Below are positions 5,247 to 27,195 of a stretch of DNA of 35,118 bases, one piece after another. Location of the stretch: contig JAVHLY010000018.1 in assembly GCA_031081585.1 (NCBI GenBank), forward strand, positions 24,090 through 59,207. The letters run 5' to 3'. Each line of letters starts with the position of its first letter. Position 1 is the stretch's first letter. Origin of the DNA: Armatimonadota bacterium (GTDB lineage: Bacteria > Sysuimicrobiota > Sysuimicrobiia > Sysuimicrobiales > Humicultoraceae). Under the pieces are notes generated by a model that saw nothing but the letters and a program-made list of their open reading frames with translations, ran no database searches and was not told where the DNA came from. The position numbers were made by a program, and so were the translations under genes.

Positions 5247-5731
5247 ACTCCCCCTTCAGCCTCCGTCAGCCTTCCGCGTCCCTCTCCGGACCCGACCGCC
5301 GAGTCCCCCCAACCTCCCCCCGCACTACGTCTAAACCGGCGACGAAGTGGGCAGGAGGCAGGTGGCGGGGGCGACGGGCCTCCTCGACCTGGAACCGGTC
5401 CGATCGGCGCGGCCGCCTCCCACGTGAAGTGACCTGCTGCCGAGGGCTGGCCGCCTCTCCCCCGCCGTCTTCCTCCCCCTCTCGGACGCCGCCCCGCGCC
5501 TCCGGCCGGGGCGGCGATCACTCCCGCCCGCGCCACAGACACGTCCGCGTCCGACTTTCCTCCGGCGACTCTCCACCATGATGGACTACCGTGCCCGGCT
5601 TCTCAAGGTGCGAGAGGCGCACGCCCCCTGCCCGTCGGGACATCTTCCGCATCCGGGGCGGCGCACGGTCAGTGGGCGGTGCGGTCCTCCAGGGGGCGGG
5701 AGGGGAGCATGCTATACTGACCTCACTGGGG
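5247..5731. other. gene-free divergent intergenic region
   Basis: This 485-bp stretch separates the leftward STAS operon from the rightward 5732 gene. I see no convincing coding region in it: open frames on both strands are Arg/Pro/Ser-rich shadows without ribosome sites. The only recognisable signal is the extended -10 element at 5710-5718. Promoters for both directions are expected here. Confidence 0.6.
5710..5718 (+). promoter_or_regulatory. extended -10 promoter element for the 5732 gene
   Basis: TGC-TATACT (5710-5718) is a TGn extended -10 hexamer with five of six consensus bases, and no clear -35 lies 17 bp upstream. Transcription would begin near 5725, giving a leader of only about 6-8 nt before ATG 5732. 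The message would then be nearly leaderless. Confidence 0.5.
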
Positions 5732-9781: not shown

Positions 9782-9857
9782 TCCGCGGTAGCTCAACTGG
9801 TAGAGCGTCCGGCTGTTAACCGGAGGGTTGCAGGTTCGAGTCCTGCCCGCGGAGCCA
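9782..9857 (+). tRNA. tRNA-Asn (anticodon GTT)
   Basis: A complete 76-nt cloverleaf is visible. The acceptor stem pairs TCCGCGG (9782-9788) with CCGCGGA (9847-9853). The anticodon stem pairs TCCGG with CCGGA around loop CTGTTAA, with GTT at 9815-9817. The T-arm is GCAGG-TTCGAGT-CCTGC. The discriminator is G9854 and CCA is encoded (9855-9857). This tRNA is the insertion site of the adjacent element; it remains intact. Confidence 0.97.
9816..9857. other. probable attL core within the tRNA-Asn 3' half
   Basis: The last 14 codons of the integrase, including its stop (the complement of TTA 9816-9818 in the anticodon loop), lie inside the tRNA on the opposite strand. In free-phage form the integrase 3' end would therefore carry the tRNA 3' half as attP. 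The exact crossover dinucleotide and attR cannot be seen here. Confidence 0.55.
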
Positions 9858-11357
9858 TTTGTTCCAGTCTTCGAACCGCTGGGGGTTGGGTAACCCGTAC
9901 CAGACCTCCACGGTTCGACGATCATGGACCAGCACCTTCTTCACCAGCCGGTGGAGGAGGTACTTCTTTTGAGGGGCCGGCCCCTCGGCCATGACCCGCT
10001 CGAAGTTCTCGACGAGGGCGACCAGCATCTCCCGGTCGACGGCCGGCAGCTCCAGCCTTTCCCGCCGCGCCTCGAGGTCGCGCTTCTCGCCCTCCAGCTC
10101 CTCCAGGCGGGCGCGGAGGTCGCGGACCTTCTCGTTGCAGAGTTCGGGCGTCAAGGTCCCCGCCTCGAAGGCCTCGAAGTAGCGGTCCATCGCCGCCTGT
10201 GTCTTGGCGGCCTGCGCCTCGACCTTCCCGATCTCCTTCTCCAGGATCGGCTTCTCGGTCCCGAGCCGCTTGTTCGCCTCCGCCCAGACGCGTGCCATGA
10301 ACTGCTCGTCGCGGAACATCGCCTTGATGTCCTCGGTGACCGCCGCCTCCAGGAGCTCGGCCCGCACGTACTCCTGCTCGCAGTCGTGGTCGTTGAAGCG
10401 CTTCGAGCAGACGTAGTACGGGACGTGGACGCCCTTCTTGTAGCCCCCGCCGCCGAACATGTGGCTCTTGCAGCGGGCGCACTTGATGATGCCCGTGAGG
10501 AGCCGCTCGTCGCCGTTGTGCCATTGGCGGCCCTTGAGGTCCTCGTGCCGCTCCTGGAGCACCTCGTTCGCCTTCTGGAAGAGTACCTCCGACACGAGCG
10601 GGTCGTGCTGCCCCTCGTAGAGGACCTCGCGCCAGCGGATCTTCCCCACGTAGACCGGGTTCTTGAGCATGTAGAGGACGACGCGCCGGCCCCACTTCCG
10701 GCCGTTGCGGTTCCGGTGTCCGGCCTCGTTGAGCTCGTTGCAGATCGCCGACGCGCCCTCCTTCCCCAGGGCGTACATCTTGAACATCTTGCGGACGATA
10801 AGGGCCTCCTCCTCGTGGACGACCAAGCCCTTCTTCTCCGGGTCGAGCTGGTAGCCGTAGGGCACGTTGCCGCCCACGAAGTTCCCGCCCTTCGCCTTCT
10901 TCTCCATCCCGACCTTCGTGCGCTCGACGATGGTCGCGTGCTCGAACTCCGCGAAGACGCCGAGCATCTGGAGCATCATCTTCCCGGCGGCGTTCGACGT
11001 GTCGAAGGGCTCGGTGATGCTCTTGAAGGTGACGCCGTTCTTCGTGAGCTCGTCCACCATCTGGGCGAGCTCGCGGACCTTGCGGGAGAGCCGGTCGACC
11101 CGGAAGACGAGGAGCGTGTTGAAGGCCCGCGCCTCGGCGTCGTAGAGCATCTCCTCGAGTCCGGGCCGGTTCATGTGGGTGCCGGACTCGGTGTCGCGGT
11201 AGACCTTGTGGAGCTGCCACTCGTCGTCCCACTGCGCCTTGCAGAAGGCCTCGAGCCGCTCCTTCTGCGCGCCGAGCGAGTACTTCTGGTGGTCCTCGTC
11301 GGTCGAGATGCGGGTGTAGAACGCGATCCGCGGGGGCTCGCGCTTCTCGTCACGCAT
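9816..11357 (-). CDS. large serine recombinase (phage integrase)
   Basis: The 513-aa protein has the full large-serine-recombinase layout. The N-terminal resolvase domain includes RIAFYTRISTDED with catalytic Ser18, then DTESGTHMNRPGL and FRVDRLSRKVREL with the conserved arginines. The recombinase domain begins around VPYGYQLDPEKKG (about 165). A zinc ribbon follows with C-x2-C in KCARCKSHM and two later cysteines in YYVCSKRFNDHDC. A long coiled coil (about 370-450) precedes the C-terminus. It would integrate and, with a directionality factor, excise the element. The final residues (GQDSNLQPSG) are read antisense through the tRNA. The start ATG at 11357 overlaps the upstream recombinase-like gene by 8 bp. 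Confidence 0.93.
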   Translation of the reverse strand: MRDEKREPPRIAFYTRISTDEDHQKYSLGAQKERLEAFCKAQWDDEWQLHKVYRDTESGTHMNRPGLEEMLYDAEARAFNTLLVFRVDRLSRKVRELAQMVDELTKNGVTFKSITEPFDTSNAAGKMMLQMLGVFAEFEHATIVERTKVGMEKKAKGGNFVGGNVPYGYQLDPEKKGLVVHEEEALIVRKMFKMYALGKEGASAICNELNEAGHRNRNGRKWGRRVVLYMLKNPVYVGKIRWREVLYEGQHDPLVSEVLFQKANEVLQERHEDLKGRQWHNGDERLLTGIIKCARCKSHMFGGGGYKKGVHVPYYVCSKRFNDHDCEQEYVRAELLEAAVTEDIKAMFRDEQFMARVWAEANKRLGTEKPILEKEIGKVEAQAAKTQAAMDRYFEAFEAGTLTPELCNEKVRDLRARLEELEGEKRDLEARRERLELPAVDREMLVALVENFERVMAEGPAPQKKYLLHRLVKKVLVHDRRTVEVWYGLPNPQRFEDWNKWLRGQDSNLQPSG

Positions 11358-21841: not shown

Positions 21842-22287
21842 CGGCGCCCGAAATCGTCGTGGCCATCGACACGCGCGAGCAGAAGCCGTACCGCTTCGCC
21901 CGCTCCGAGGTGAAGACGCTCCCGACCGGGGACTACTCCATCGTCGGCCTCGAGGACCGGATCGCCATCGAGCGCAAGACCAAGGAGGACGCCTACTCCT
22001 CCCTCGGCCAGGGCCGCGCACGATTCGAGCGGGAGCTCCAGCGGCTCTCCCAGTTCGACTACGCCGCCATCGTGATCGAGACGTCCCTGCCGGACTTCCT
22101 TCAAGCGCCGGCCTTCTCGCGGATGAATCCGAAGGCGGCGGCCAGCTCCATCGTGGCCTGGTCGGTCAAGTACCGCGTGTGCTTGTTCTTCGCGGGCGAC
22201 CGGCTGCACGGCAACGCCCTGACCCGGCAGCTCCTCGAGAAATTCTGGCGCTACCAGAACGGAGACGCGGATGCCGGATCAGGATGA
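21838..22287 (+). CDS. ERCC4/XPF-type nuclease
   Basis: The 149-aa protein is essentially one ERCC4 nuclease domain. VVAIDTREQKPYRF gives the first acidic residue (Asp11), TGDYS follows at 30-34, and IAIERKTKEDAYSSLG is the signature E45-R-K with Asp51 nearby. It lacks the helix-hairpin-helix found in full XPF proteins. Such short versions occur in phages and may cut branched DNA. ATG 21838 overlaps the helicase stop in ATGA, and its own end overlaps the primase by 17 bp, so it is part of the replication unit. Confidence 0.88.
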   Translation: MTAPEIVVAIDTREQKPYRFARSEVKTLPTGDYSIVGLEDRIAIERKTKEDAYSSLGQGRARFERELQRLSQFDYAAIVIETSLPDFLQAPAFSRMNPKAAASSIVAWSVKYRVCLFFAGDRLHGNALTRQLLEKFWRYQNGDADAGSG

Positions 22288-25200
22288 CCTCTGGAAGCGC
22301 TACAAGCAGGCGGTCCTGGAGAGGGTCGGGGACTTCTCGGTCCTCTTCGACGGCCTGGCCAAGCAGAAGCCCTCCACGGACGGCTGGGTGACGGCGCTCT
22401 GCCCGTTTCACGAGGACAAGAACCCGTCCTTCGCGTTCAACCGCAACTCGGGCCGGTGGTGCTGCTTCGCGGGCTGCGGCAAGGGGAGCGCCTTCGACTA
22501 CCTCATGCAGACCTCGGGGAAGAGCTTCAAGGACGCGCTCCTCGAGGTCGGCGACCGCGTCGGCGTGCCGCGCCCCTTCGCGGACAAGCCGCCGCGCCCG
22601 CCGATCCGCGAGGCCCTCGTCAAGCAGTGGGTCGGCGACCTCTGGGCCGACGAAGGGGTCTGCCGGTGGCTGCGGGAGAAGCGCGGGCTCTCCGACGCGA
22701 CGCTCAAGAAGTACGAGATCGGCTGGGACCCCAAGCGACAGCGCAACACCATCCCGATCCGCGACGAGCGCGGCAACGTGATGAACGTCCGGCTCTACAA
22801 CGCCAAGAAGGACCCGAAGATCATCAACTACACCGAGGGCCGCTACAAGTACGGCTCGCCCGCGCGCCTCTACGGCATCGACGAACTCGTCAAGTACCAA
22901 GGTAAGCAGGTCATCCTCTGCGAGGGCGAGTGGGACCGCCTGGTCCTCCAGCAGGAAGGCTTCATGGCGGTGACCGGCACGCACGGCGCGTCGGTCTTCC
23001 GGCCGGAGTGGATCGCCCACTTCAAGGACAAGGACGTCGTCGTCCTCTACGACTGCGACCGGGAGGGCCAGGCCGCGGCGAGCAACGTCGTCCTGCGGGC
23101 GCTCAAGACCGCGGGCGCCGCCTCGGTCAAGAACGTCGTCCTTCCGCTCAAGGGGGACAAGGACGACAAGGATGTCACCGACTATTTCCACAAACGCGGC
23201 CTCACGGCGGCCGACCTCCAGAAGCTGATCGACGACACGCCGGCGCACTCCTACGAGGCGGAGGACCGGCCCGAGGAGATCCTGGCGCTGGAGTCCTTCA
23301 CCGAGGTCGAGCGGAAGGACCTCATCGACAAGAAGGTCCGCTGCGAGATCACGGCCTGCGGCGAGACCTCGGAGGCGTTCCACGCCGTCGAGGAGTTCCG
23401 CATCACGTTCTGCCCCCGAATGCAGAAGGGCGGCTGCTTCGAGTGCAAGGGCGTGGTGGAGCCCGCCGTGATCCCCAAGGGCGCGCAGGAGTACATCGGC
23501 TCCTGCATGTCCACGAACGTCCAGCTCAAGGCGATGCTCCGCGAGTACGCCTGCAAGTACGGCCAGAAGCCGACCATCGAGATCCTGCGGCGCACCACGG
23601 TGAAGGAGTTCTTCTGCCATCAGAAGGTGAACCGCATCACCCAGACCCGCGACGAGGAGGGAAACGTCATCCAGGTGATCGACGGCAAGAAGCAGGAACT
23701 CCTGGAGAAGCGGGTCTACTACCTCTCGAGCGAGCACCCCAAGCCCGGCAATTACCTCGCCGTGGGCTGGGTCAAGAGCCACCCCAAGACCCAGCAGGTG
23801 ACGTTCCTCATCGACTCCATGGAGCCGCTCGAGGACGACTTCGAGAGCTTCCGCGTGGAGGAGAACCTCCAGCACCTGCGCGCGTTCCAGTCGCTCTCGT
23901 GGGCGGAGATCCTGGAGGACCTCACCGAGAACGTCACGCGGGTCTACGAGCGCGAGGAGATCCTCGTGGCGATCCTCCTCACCTACTGCTCGCCCCGCTG
24001 GATTCCCTTCAACGCGGAGATCATCCGGGGCTGGCTTGTGACCGTCATCATCGGCGACTCGGGCTCCGGCAAGACGCAGACGCACCAGCGGATCGCGGAG
24101 TTCATCAACATCGGCGACTGCTTCTCCGGCTTGACGGGCTCTCGTACCGGTCTCGCCTACGCCCTGGTCGAGCACAAGCAGAAGGGCTGGCAGGTCAAGG
24201 TCGGCCGCTACCCGGCGAACTCGCGGAAGATCCTCACCGTGGACGAGGCCCAGCACCTGCCGGACTGGGACCTGCGGACCATCTCGAAGGCGATGGAGGA
24301 AGGGTTCCTCCAGATCGACCGCGTGCAGTCCAAAGGCTACGAGAGCCAGACGCGGCTCGTCATGATCGCCAACCCGAAGAAGGACGCGGTGATGGACAGC
24401 TTTTCCTTCGGGTGCGAGTCGCTCACGACGATCCTCCCGCCCACGATCATCCGCCGGACGGACGTCGCCGTCTTCGCCAATTCCGGCGACCTCAAGGACC
24501 TCTCCTTCATCAACCGCAAGCGCGCCGAGGGAAACCGGCGGCGGATCACGCCCGAGATGCTGCGGGCGGTGGTCTACTGGGCGTGGAACCTCCGGCCCGA
24601 GCAGATCATCTTCACGTCCGAGGCCGAGGACTTCTGCCTCCAGCGCGCCCAGGAGCTCTCGGCGGTCTATGGCTACGCCGTGGACGTGCCGCTCATCACG
24701 CTCTCGGACTGCCGCAACAACCTCGCGCGCGTCGCGGCCGCTTTGGCGGCCCTCCTCGTCTCGGCGGACGAGAACTTCGCGCGCCTCGTCATCGAGCCCA
24801 AGCACGTCCGCATGGCGGCGGAGTTCCTCTCGCGGCTCTACTCGCACGAGAACTGCGCCCTGGACGACTACTCGGAGATCGCCCGCCACGGGAGCCAGCT
24901 CCTCGACTACGAAAAGATCGAAAAGGCCTTCCTCGAGAAGTGGGAGCAGCAGCGCTTCGCCCACGACGAGGAGGAGCGGAACCACTTCCCCCGCCTGCTC
25001 TTCGTCCTGCGGACCACCCGCGTCATCCGCCGGGATGACTTGGCGGAGCAGGTCGGCTGTAGCGTCGAGACCGTCAAGCGGTCGATCCGCCTGCTCAAGC
25101 GCTTCAACCTCCTCGACAGCACGAGGGACGGCTACGTGAAGAAGCCGAAGTTCAACAAGTTCCTCCGGCGGTTCCTCAAGGCCCATCCCGAGTTCTTCCG

Positions 25201-25288
25201 CGACGCCGCTGGGGGTGGGGGTCAACCTCAAAATTGCGATAACTCATTGAGGTTCAAGGACTTGTCGGAAAGCGGAGGTGAAGGTTGA
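22271..25288 (+). CDS. DnaG-type primase fused to an MCM-like AAA+ helicase
   Basis: The 1005-aa protein joins two replication activities. At the front is a CHC2 zinc finger (LCPFHEDKNPSF with Cys44 and His47, RWCCFAGCGKGSAFDYLM with Cys64/65 and Cys69). Next is a TOPRIM domain (LCEGEWDRL near 216, VVLYDCDREG near 259-268). After a middle with cysteines near 345-400 comes an AAA+ module: IIGDSGSGKTQ (about 593-603), GSRTGLAYAL, ILTVDEAQHLPDWD (Walker B about 656-659), KAMEEGFLQID, VMIANPK and PPTIIRRTDVAVF. This series parallels MCM motifs. A winged-helix tail (DDLAEQVGCSVETVKRSIRLLKRFNLLD) also matches MCM. The last 25 codons lie within the repeat cluster. Confidence 0.88.
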   Translation: MPDQDDLWKRYKQAVLERVGDFSVLFDGLAKQKPSTDGWVTALCPFHEDKNPSFAFNRNSGRWCCFAGCGKGSAFDYLMQTSGKSFKDALLEVGDRVGVPRPFADKPPRPPIREALVKQWVGDLWADEGVCRWLREKRGLSDATLKKYEIGWDPKRQRNTIPIRDERGNVMNVRLYNAKKDPKIINYTEGRYKYGSPARLYGIDELVKYQGKQVILCEGEWDRLVLQQEGFMAVTGTHGASVFRPEWIAHFKDKDVVVLYDCDREGQAAASNVVLRALKTAGAASVKNVVLPLKGDKDDKDVTDYFHKRGLTAADLQKLIDDTPAHSYEAEDRPEEILALESFTEVERKDLIDKKVRCEITACGETSEAFHAVEEFRITFCPRMQKGGCFECKGVVEPAVIPKGAQEYIGSCMSTNVQLKAMLREYACKYGQKPTIEILRRTTVKEFFCHQKVNRITQTRDEEGNVIQVIDGKKQELLEKRVYYLSSEHPKPGNYLAVGWVKSHPKTQQVTFLIDSMEPLEDDFESFRVEENLQHLRAFQSLSWAEILEDLTENVTRVYEREEILVAILLTYCSPRWIPFNAEIIRGWLVTVIIGDSGSGKTQTHQRIAEFINIGDCFSGLTGSRTGLAYALVEHKQKGWQVKVGRYPANSRKILTVDEAQHLPDWDLRTISKAMEEGFLQIDRVQSKGYESQTRLVMIANPKKDAVMDSFSFGCESLTTILPPTIIRRTDVAVFANSGDLKDLSFINRKRAEGNRRRITPEMLRAVVYWAWNLRPEQIIFTSEAEDFCLQRAQELSAVYGYAVDVPLITLSDCRNNLARVAAALAALLVSADENFARLVIEPKHVRMAAEFLSRLYSHENCALDDYSEIARHGSQLLDYEKIEKAFLEKWEQQRFAHDEEERNHFPRLLFVLRTTRVIRRDDLAEQVGCSVETVKRSIRLLKRFNLLDSTRDGYVKKPKFNKFLRRFLKAHPEFFRDAAGGGGQPQNCDNSLRFKDLSESGGEG

Positions 25289-25444
25289 CCCCGCGCACGA
25301 AAAATTGGGGCCACCCTGGAAGTAAGGCGCGAGCTGACTTCCAGGGTGAACGCGTTGATGCCCTCTCGGGGGTCAACCTCGGAGGGGGCCTTTCGATAAC
25401 TCATTGTGCAGCAAGGGGTTGTTCGCGTTTTGAGGTTGACCCCC
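25217..25444. repeat. symmetrical repeat cluster, candidate replication origin or multi-operator
   Basis: Four copies of GGGGTCAACCT-type sequence lie in alternating orientation: 25217-25233 (plus), 25281-25292 (minus), 25368-25380 (plus) and 25428-25444 (minus). The outermost two are a perfect 17-bp inverted pair, GGGGGTCAACCTCAAAA and its complement. GATAACTCATTG occurs once in each half (25238-25249, 25395-25406). The halves are two modules of 76 and 77 bp with the same plan, separated by a 12-bp-stem hairpin. The cluster directly follows the primase-helicase gene and overlaps its 3' end. Confidence 0.85.
25312..25348. repeat. 12-bp perfect hairpin at the centre of the repeat cluster
   Basis: CACCCTGGAAGT (25312-25323), a 13-nt loop and ACTTCCAGGGTG (25337-25348) pair without mismatch. 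It lies between the two repeat modules and has no T-tract, so a cruciform, initiation or binding structure fits better than a terminator. Confidence 0.8.
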
Positions 25445-25466
25445 TCGGTTCGGGAAGGGGCAATGA

Positions 25467-25910
25467 ATGAAGCTGCGAGACCTGGCCGGGGGAACGACGA
25501 GCGCCGAGAAGTCGGCGGCGGTGCCCGCCCCCGTCCAGGCGTCGTCGCCGACCCCAGACCCGAAGGCGTCGGCCTCGTGGCCCGCGGGGCCGCCCGGAGT
25601 GCGGTGGCTCGTCCTCGAGTCGCGGCTCCTGGACGACGAACAGTTCCTCGTCGTCTTCGAGAAGCAGCACCTGAAGGAGGCGCGGAAGGCGCATCCGGGG
25701 AAGGTCATCTACTTCCCGCCGGAGATCGACGAGCTCTACCGGCACAAGGACGCGCCCGACTACCCGCAGTTCCTCAAGACCATCCACCTGGTCAAGAAGA
25801 AGTTCGGCGGCTGGATCATCCCGTCCGACTCGCCGCTCGCGCGGCGGCTCGAACCGCCGAAGGGAGGTGACACCCATGGAACCACGAAACGTGAAAAGCG
25901 GGCCGGTTGA
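25467..25910 (+). CDS. unrecognised 147-aa phage protein
   Basis: ATG 25467 follows GGGAAGGGG; another ATG four bases earlier is out of frame. The first 45 residues are Ala/Ser/Pro-rich and probably disordered. Residues 46-135 look folded (VRWLVLESRLLDDEQFLVVFEK, KVIYFPPEIDELYR, KTIHLVKKKFGGWIIPSDSP). I recognise no family. It is the first gene after the repeat cluster, so its expression may depend on proteins bound there. Its end overlaps the SpoVG-like gene by 35 bp. Confidence 0.75.
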   Translation: MKLRDLAGGTTSAEKSAAVPAPVQASSPTPDPKASASWPAGPPGVRWLVLESRLLDDEQFLVVFEKQHLKEARKAHPGKVIYFPPEIDELYRHKDAPDYPQFLKTIHLVKKKFGGWIIPSDSPLARRLEPPKGGDTHGTTKREKRAG

Positions 25911-26181
25911 GGTGAGCGAGGTGAAGGTCCGCCTCGTGGACGACGGCGGCGACGGCCTCGTCGGCTGGGCCTCGTGCGTCGTCAACGGCGCGCTCTACCT
26001 GAACAACATCGCCATCCGGCGCGGCCGGAACGGCGAGTTCGTGCTGACCTACCCGAGCAAGCGGAGCCGCTCCGACCAGAAGTACTTCTACTTCAACCCG
26101 ATCACGCGGGAGGCCAAGCGGGCGCTCGACGAGGCCATCCTGGGCAAGCTTCGGTGCGGGGAGGCCCCATGCCGGGCGTGA
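25876..26181 (+). CDS. SpoVG-like DNA/RNA-binding protein
   Basis: The 101-aa product follows the SpoVG pattern: VSEVKVRLVDDGGDGLVGWASCVVNGALYLNNIAIRRGRNGEFVLTYP in the strand-rich core, then KYFYFNPITREAKRALDEAIL. SpoVG proteins are small dimeric nucleic-acid-binding regulators. ATG 25876 has GGGAGGTGA well placed; the GTG at 25867 lies on that site. In the phage it sits between the repeat cluster and the Gam-like and terminase genes, so a role in replication or transcription control is likely but inferred. Confidence 0.82.
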   Translation: MEPRNVKSGPVEVSEVKVRLVDDGGDGLVGWASCVVNGALYLNNIAIRRGRNGEFVLTYPSKRSRSDQKYFYFNPITREAKRALDEAILGKLRCGEAPCRA

Positions 26182-26666
26182 AGAAGACCGACGTGACCGT
26201 CGAGCTCGACCGCCTGTGCCTGGAGGTCGCCGCGCTGGGCCGGAAGATCCGCGGCATCGAGCACGCACGGAACATGCACGTCCGTTTCTACATGCAGAGA
26301 ATCCGCGAGGAGTCCGAGACCTTCGAGCAGGAGCTCGCGCCGCTCAAGGAGAAGCGCGAGCGCCTGCGGCGGGCGATCCTCGACCTCTGGGCGGAGCACC
26401 ACGAGGGCACGAAGACCCTGGAGCTCCCTTGCGGCAAGGTGACCCGCCGGACCGACCGCGAGCTCGTCGTGCGCGACAAGGAGGCGCTCCTCGACGCCTT
26501 GGACCGCGCGGACCGCCTCGACCTCGTGGATCACGTCTTCGACGAGAAGGCCGTGGCTCACCTAATCGCCGAGGGGAAGCTCCCCGGCCTGCCGGGCGGC
26601 GCGGCCCAAGTGGTCGACCACTACAGCATCGCCGTCCAGCTGAAGAAGGGGGATCGCCGTGCGTGA
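26169..26666 (+). CDS. Gam-like host-nuclease inhibitor (Ku-like DNA-end protector)
   Basis: The 165-aa protein starts with helical, coiled-coil-prone sequence (VELDRLCLEVAALGRKIRGIE, then ESETFEQELAPLKEKRERLRRAI). It continues with the Gam signature GTKTLELPCGKVTRRTDRELVVRDKEALLDAL and ends in a small C-terminal region. Phage Mu Gam binds duplex ends and shields them from RecBCD/AddAB-type exonucleases. ATG 26169 overlaps the SpoVG-like stop, and its own stop overlaps the next GTG. It would protect phage ends during replication or packaging. Confidence 0.8.
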   Translation: MPGVKKTDVTVELDRLCLEVAALGRKIRGIEHARNMHVRFYMQRIREESETFEQELAPLKEKRERLRRAILDLWAEHHEGTKTLELPCGKVTRRTDRELVVRDKEALLDALDRADRLDLVDHVFDEKAVAHLIAEGKLPGLPGGAAQVVDHYSIAVQLKKGDRRA

Positions 26667-27195
26667 GGGCTACGCCAGGAAGCGCGAGAAGGCGTTCCGC
26701 CTGCGGCTCCAGCGGAAGACCTTCGCCGAGATCTGCCGCGAAATCGGCGTCTCGGACAAGACGCTCTCGAAGTGGGAACGCGGCTGGATCGACGCCAAGG
26801 GCCGGAAGCATCCGGGTTGGCAGGCGGAGCTCGAGAAGGCCTGGCGGGAGCTCTCCGAGAGCGAGCTCCAGTACGGCCTCATGCTCAAGGAGGAGCGGCT
26901 CAAGACCTACGAGGAGCTCGCGCGCCTCGCGGTCGCCAAGATCAAGGAGATGTTCCCGAACATCCGAGCCAAGACCGCCGCGGACGCCAAGGCGCTCCTC
27001 TCGGAGGTGCGCGAGCTCATGCGCCTCATCGCCGAGGAGAAAGGCGACTACAAGCCCCGGCCGCACACCCTGGTCGCGGTGAAGACGGACATCACGCTCA
27101 ATGAGATTTCGGAGAGGTACAGGAACGCCCATGCGGATCGTGACGAAGGAAACCCCGAGCCCGGACGAACTGAGCCGCTGGCTGGCGACGAGTGA
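26659..27195 (+). CDS. probable small terminase subunit (HTH protein)
   Basis: The 178-aa protein opens with a helix-turn-helix (KRKTFAEICREIGVSDKTLSKWERG, about 18-42) followed by long charged helices (LKEERLKTYEELARLAVAKIKEMF) and a short acidic tail. Position directly before, and overlapping, the large terminase gene makes the DNA-recognition subunit of the packaging motor the best call. I do not see a closer family match. The start is GTG 26659, inside the Gam-like gene. Confidence 0.7.
   Translation: MREGYARKREKAFRLRLQRKTFAEICREIGVSDKTLSKWERGWIDAKGRKHPGWQAELEKAWRELSESELQYGLMLKEERLKTYEELARLAVAKIKEMFPNIRAKTAADAKALLSEVRELMRLIAEEKGDYKPRPHTLVAVKTDITLNEISERYRNAHADRDEGNPEPGRTEPLAGDE

Follow-up and report, generated by a model that had tools for sequence, protein, structure and literature searches.

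Phased inverted iterons directly downstream of a primase-MCM gene as a probable replication origin of a prophage in an Armatimonadota bacterium

In a prophage of an Armatimonadota bacterium, the 3' end of a primase gene runs into an ordered cluster of alternating repeats (25217-25444 in the 35,118-nucleotide stretch of DNA analysed here, hereafter the window), which raises the question of whether this cluster is the origin of phage DNA replication, an operator for the genes to its right or a signal of yet another kind. The window holds a prophage. From the left, host genes are followed by tRNA-Asn (9782-9857) and a minus-strand serine integrase gene (9816-11357); next come genes for a repressor-like HTH protein, an IrrE-like protein, a PD-(D/E)XK (Cas4-like) nuclease, an AAA ATPase, a DUF669 protein, RecD2 and an ERCC4-type nuclease, and then those for the primase-MCM protein, SpoVG-like and Mu-Gam-like proteins, a probable small terminase, TerL, and baseplate and lysis proteins. 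The contig stops at the end of the window, so the right end of the prophage lies outside the sequence. An attachment site was considered as an explanation of the repeats and rejected, given that the integrase gene lies beside the tRNA, 14 kb from the array.

The gene that precedes the array (22271..25288, plus strand) encodes one polypeptide that combines a DnaG-type primase (Zn-ribbon and Toprim, residues 40-300), an MCM-type AAA+ helicase (residues ~546-830) and a C-terminal winged helix (residues ~905-965). Pfam matches to Zn_ribbon_DnaG, Toprim and MCM were obtained, and MCM matches were returned also by a PDB profile search and, for the modelled part, by Foldseek. The winged helix, for which HTH/Crp-type matches are seen in most members of the family, has a pLDDT of about 86 in the AlphaFold2 model (whole-model mean, 65), and its recognition helix is predicted at residues ~932-944.

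All of the repeat elements claimed in the initial annotation were recovered, base for base. The word GGTCAACC occurs at 25220 and 25371 and its inverse GGTTGACC at 25283 and 25434, with a start-to-start spacing of 63 bp that is equal in the two modules. Module 1 is bounded by the outer iteron L1 (GGGGTCAACCT; 25218..25228, plus) and the inner iteron R1 (25282..25292, minus), and module 2 by the inner iteron L2 (25369..25379, plus) and the outer iteron R2 (25433..25443, minus); the outer arms, 25217-25233 and 25428-25444, are perfect inverted copies of each other over 17 bp and are separated by 194 bp. These repeats are far above chance: the four alternating 11-mers score 66/66 in the window vs a maximum of 51 in 200 dinucleotide shuffles of the region. 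Within the modules lie the B1 and B2 boxes, which in module 1 are found on the minus strand at 25255..25264 (CAAGTCCTTG, +28 from the inner iteron) and 25240..25249 (+43 to +52), and in module 2 on the plus strand at 25397..25406 (TAACTCATTG) and 25412..25421. The element GATAACTCATTG, previously described as a box in each half, is indeed present in both (25238 and 25395), but comparison with relatives assigns the two copies to different slots, namely, B2, read inverted, in module 1 and B1 in module 2. It has no other copy in the 2.88-Mb host genome, and a scattered host mobile repeat was rejected on this ground. The central element (25293..25368) consists of an A-run followed by CCACCC...GGGTGA ends that are conserved in relatives, and contains a perfect 12-bp hairpin (25312..25348; arms 25312-25323 and 25337-25348) that is specific to the window phage. 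As had been noted, the array overlaps the 3' end of the primase gene, beginning within the last 24 codons of this 1005-residue gene, and it stops about 22 bp ahead of the next start codon.

A protein search identified relatives in bacterial metagenome-assembled genomes of several phyla and in viral contigs, and both modules recur among these related elements, with the four-arm layout located directly 3' of the primase gene in 14 loci including the window. Because L004 is identical to L009 in this region and L008 and L013 are ~97% alike, the independent cases number ~12. Absence of the repeats where the replication genes are kept, which the initial annotation had set against its origin proposal, is the opposite of what is seen, the layout recurring down to 40% protein identity. 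The arm word varies by phage (GGTCAACCT, GGTCAGGTT, GGTGCAGGTT, GGTGCAAGTT, GTGTATAGTT, GGAACCT, GGCACAGTT and others): the four arms change in concert, being alike inside each phage and unlike between phages. A recognisable array was not found after the primase gene in the distant relatives L047/L015, L079, L070 and L071 (primase identity about 40% for L047 and about 50% for L079, with L070 and L071 more distant); since the most distant relatives are without it, the layout defines a subgroup of such initiators. The host's own phylum yielded no further homologues, nor did samples taken from the L004 and L005 phyla; in the L003 and L007 phyla, only distant or degenerate homologues were found, and these have no recognisable array. 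A description of such an array was not found in the open-access literature, to which the survey was confined. Several loci show individual departures. A fifteenth locus, L048, carries an expanded array of about eight iterons of the GGGTATGGTTC type after the primase gene (L048:1212-1634), in which pairs are spaced at 52, 62 and 63 bp. After the ~50% identical primase gene of L079, a centre-like motif with few arms (L079:4419-4600) is possibly a decayed version of the array. In L013 (439-1233), the primase frame is broken after ~264 codons, by a frameshift or an assembly error, and the array is intact.

The geometry of the array is strongly constrained. Thirteen of the 14 loci, read in the core register, have their arms 52-54 or 64 bp apart; in the remaining one, L014, the register is uncertain and the distances are 61/61 on its own word. 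The two spacing classes differ by one helical turn and, irrespective of register, the two modules of any one phage have spacings that differ either by 0-1 bp or by exactly 10 bp. From one module to the next, the period is 141-143 or 151-153 bp, except in L046, where it is 183-184 bp (+42, about four turns). In most modules, 27-28 bp separate the start of the inner arm from a TAAGTCCTTG-like box, with AA/TT steps again 15 bp on (the box is indistinct in L041, in L014 and in one module of L046), and the extra helical turn falls after the boxes, before the outer arm. The 9-nt flanks of the arms match at 57/126 positions for L1-R2 and 51/126 for R1-L2 vs 26/126 and 27/126, the level of chance, within modules, and therefore the whole array is a dyad about its centre.

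The same measurements bear on the possibility that the array is a structured RNA or a terminator, in which the primase transcript would fold into a central hairpin with another on each side. This reading would draw on the inverted arms and on the strong central hairpin of the window (z -2.9 as DNA), and it has a precedent in the crenarchaeal plasmid pRN1, where, as with a stem-loop in phage BIP-1, the origin lies 3' of a primase-helicase-winged-helix gene and is a stem-loop with inverted arms, the sequence of which is not conserved (PMC4234260). However, in pRN1 the primase is of the archaeo-eukaryotic type and there is one 100-bp stem-loop, whereas the spacing and symmetry seen here argue for protein on duplex DNA: the flanks match across the symmetry and do not pair within modules, which favours protein-bound double-stranded DNA over RNA hairpins, and spacing classes ten bases apart suit B-DNA. 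The central hairpin, although perfect in the window as claimed, is not a conserved structure and was rejected as such; relatives keep only the CCAC/GGTG ends, and for the centre consensus folding gives 6 pairs (-2.45 kcal/mol). With this weak centre fold and within-module flanks at chance, a conserved strand secondary structure of the pRN1 type was not found, nor was an Rfam match or a terminator-like site. Two RNA hairpins were thus rejected on the flank matches and spacing classes, and the broader RNA or terminator reading appears extremely improbable. Despite its A-run, the central element of the GC-rich phages is not AT-rich.

What the array co-varies with can be seen from the closest relative of the window phage, L003, with which it shares ~94% DNA identity over the primase gene and ~90% over the preceding genes. 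The similarity holds to 24.88 kb and returns for ~500 bp from 25.6 kb, and the only dip in the primase-array region, over about 24.9-25.6 kb, corresponds to a divergent block (24880..25590) that comprises the winged-helix end of the primase gene, the array, in which the arms differ too, and the variable 5' end of the next gene. At the protein level, primase identity is 97% for residues 1-860 but falls to 70% for residues 871-970. L003 and L004, with identical arms and spacing, show no C-terminal dip (90% and 94%), whereas L004 and L008 show one (97% and 80%) despite having the same arms, in different spacing classes, so that the cassette is best described as the C-terminal domain plus the array, not the arm sequence alone. 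Across 12 sequences, with the register of some arms set by hand, a partial Mantel test of arms vs winged helix, with AAA+ controlled, gave r 0.51 (permutation p 0.004), compared with -0.34 for the reverse. Exchange of winged-helix domains has been reported for replication initiators of Gordonia phages, in a passage that leaves the origin aside (PMC10684548). A separate stretch that is divergent between the window and L003 starts from ~26.1 kb, and the Gam-like and putative small terminase genes (26100-27100) make up this second block.

These observations bear directly on two further alternatives. Under the first, the array would be a multi-site operator from which a phage regulator or the initiator itself controls transcription of the right-hand genes, an idea to which the short distance to the next start codon lends itself; autoregulation by the initiator would, moreover, be compatible with the array also being an origin. 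Yet in L004, L008 and L013 the downstream gene is replaced and the array is retained, the arms are essentially confined to a single place in each genome, and they vary together with the winged helix of the primase itself; a sigma-70-like promoter was not found, which is a weak argument given that the scan did not extend to other promoter types. The array thus tracks the primase and not the right-hand genes, and the multi-dimer operator offered in the initial annotation is unlikely. Under the second alternative, the array is a packaging site (pac or cos) read by the small terminase, for which the likely TerS gene, with an HTH (26659-27195), lies close by, 1.2 kb downstream of the array and just upstream of TerL, and, like the array, diverges between the window and L003. 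In most loci, however, a homologue of the window terminase was not found within the ~3-6 kb of downstream flank while the array stays with the primase gene; a nearby TerL homologue was seen only in the window, L003 and L012, in flanks of limited length in which divergent terminases could be missed. We consider a packaging site very unlikely. In the window (25467-25490) and at the same place in L003, L004, L008, L010 and L043, the gene next to the array begins with a short N-terminal peptide like M-x-L-x-D-L-A, which persists even where the remaining gene is replaced.

The origin proposal, which had invoked the location beside the initiator gene, is supported by the recurrence of the layout directly after the primase gene even with the downstream gene replaced. 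In the sequences scanned for arm uniqueness (the window and the 43-50 kb phage sequences G105, G107, G108 and part of G100, not all of them whole phages), no copy of the 11-mer arm lies outside the array except at two lone positions; in G106, where the arm is a shorter 9-mer, specificity is too low for uniqueness to be judged. GC skew, which had been suggested as a check, increases on the right-hand side of the array in most loci, although the rise is weak and is not seen in L014 and L041. The single cluster per genome, the linkage to the initiator and the published precedents make an origin by far the likeliest reading. Judging from sequence comparison, the array is very probably the replication origin of the phage, recognised by the winged helix of the upstream primase-MCM protein.

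The geometry is new; as an origin, the array would work like those of SaPI, SCCmec and P4. As in SaPI Rep/ori and SCCmec Cch2, an initiator helicase with a C-terminal DNA-binding domain, here predicted, has repeats directly downstream. Unlike in those systems, primase and helicase are parts of one polypeptide, the mobile element is a prophage that has phage structural genes, and the iterons are arranged as two phased, inverted modules that contain B boxes and enclose a central element. In the SaPI ori, sets of iterons flank an AT-rich region. The C-terminal domain of SaPI Rep and of SCCmec Cch2 binds a site, the origin or putative origin, immediately 3' of the protein's own gene, and two hexamers are thought to be loaded (PMC7581432). 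The P4 alpha protein has a similar domain layout, a single polypeptide in which a Toprim-type primase and a helicase are followed by a C-terminal winged helix, and its winged helix binds the origin repeats (as summarised in PMC4234260).

P4 is also the source of a further rival explanation, namely, that the array resembles crr in being a cis-required region, which the initiator binds and on which replication depends while the strands open elsewhere. The P4 crr, too, is a two-module inverted array immediately 3' of the alpha primase gene, built of type-1 iterons with a first +/- spacing of 52 bp, and it is required in cis while the annotated P4 origin is elsewhere. However, P4, unlike the scanned phages, has iterons at its annotated origin too, in a far-off second cluster (ori1); such a cluster was not seen in the window or in the scanned phage sequences, not all of which are whole phages, and one site is present here. 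Moreover, the P4 iterons (TGTTCACC) are denser, and the crr modules are direct 120-bp repeats, in contrast to the dyad symmetry of the array described here. A crr-like role is accordingly rather improbable. The lambda iterons are inside the O gene, beside an AT-rich region, and the O protein recruits a separate helicase. The likeness to O and ori lambda resides in the four repeated sites beside the sequence encoding the DNA-binding domain of the initiator (PMC7466680, for part of the comparison).

For the origin reading, we infer the following mechanism. The C-terminal winged helix would bind the four ~11-bp iterons, which are helically phased and arranged as an inverted pair of modules, each reading inner iteron, 17 bp, B1, B2 and outer iteron, on either side of a centre of ~76 bp; each module would nucleate one MCM ring, yielding two oppositely oriented rings; the duplex would open inside the modules or in the stretch that separates them; and the Toprim primase, being part of the same polypeptide, would lay the first primers, with forks departing both ways. 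The B boxes and the central element presumably have roles in this process. The complete proposal, a self-contained bacterial MCM origin in which one polypeptide recognises four phased iterons in two inverted modules and loads a double hexamer without a loader, and in which the winged helix and array pass between phages as a single specificity cassette, is tentative, and we hold it to be somewhat less probable than even. Should it be correct, these phages would offer an MCM-type origin in many natural variants that differ in spacing, recognition sequence and DNA-binding domain, so that direct tests could be made of how one protein sets MCM rings in opposite orientation with neither ORC nor Cdc6, and of how origin specificity changes; four phased inverted arms just 3' of a primase-MCM gene would, in addition, provide a rule for finding origins in uncultured phages.

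L008 carries a partial extra outer arm together with the start of the following gene (5400-5480; GTGGGGGGCAGGTTTTAAATTC), probably a small duplication. In the cultured phages BSTP12, Wollypog, Krampus and Youna2, the primases of which are ~25-27% identical, a four-arm array 3' of the primase gene was not found. Clusters of short repeats in two orientations are present in Microbacterium phage Krampus (L051:3650-3755; GGGGATTGTGG) and in Youna2 (L052:2994-3282; CTTTACAAAA), upstream of the distant primase-helicase genes, and are possible origins in cultured phages.
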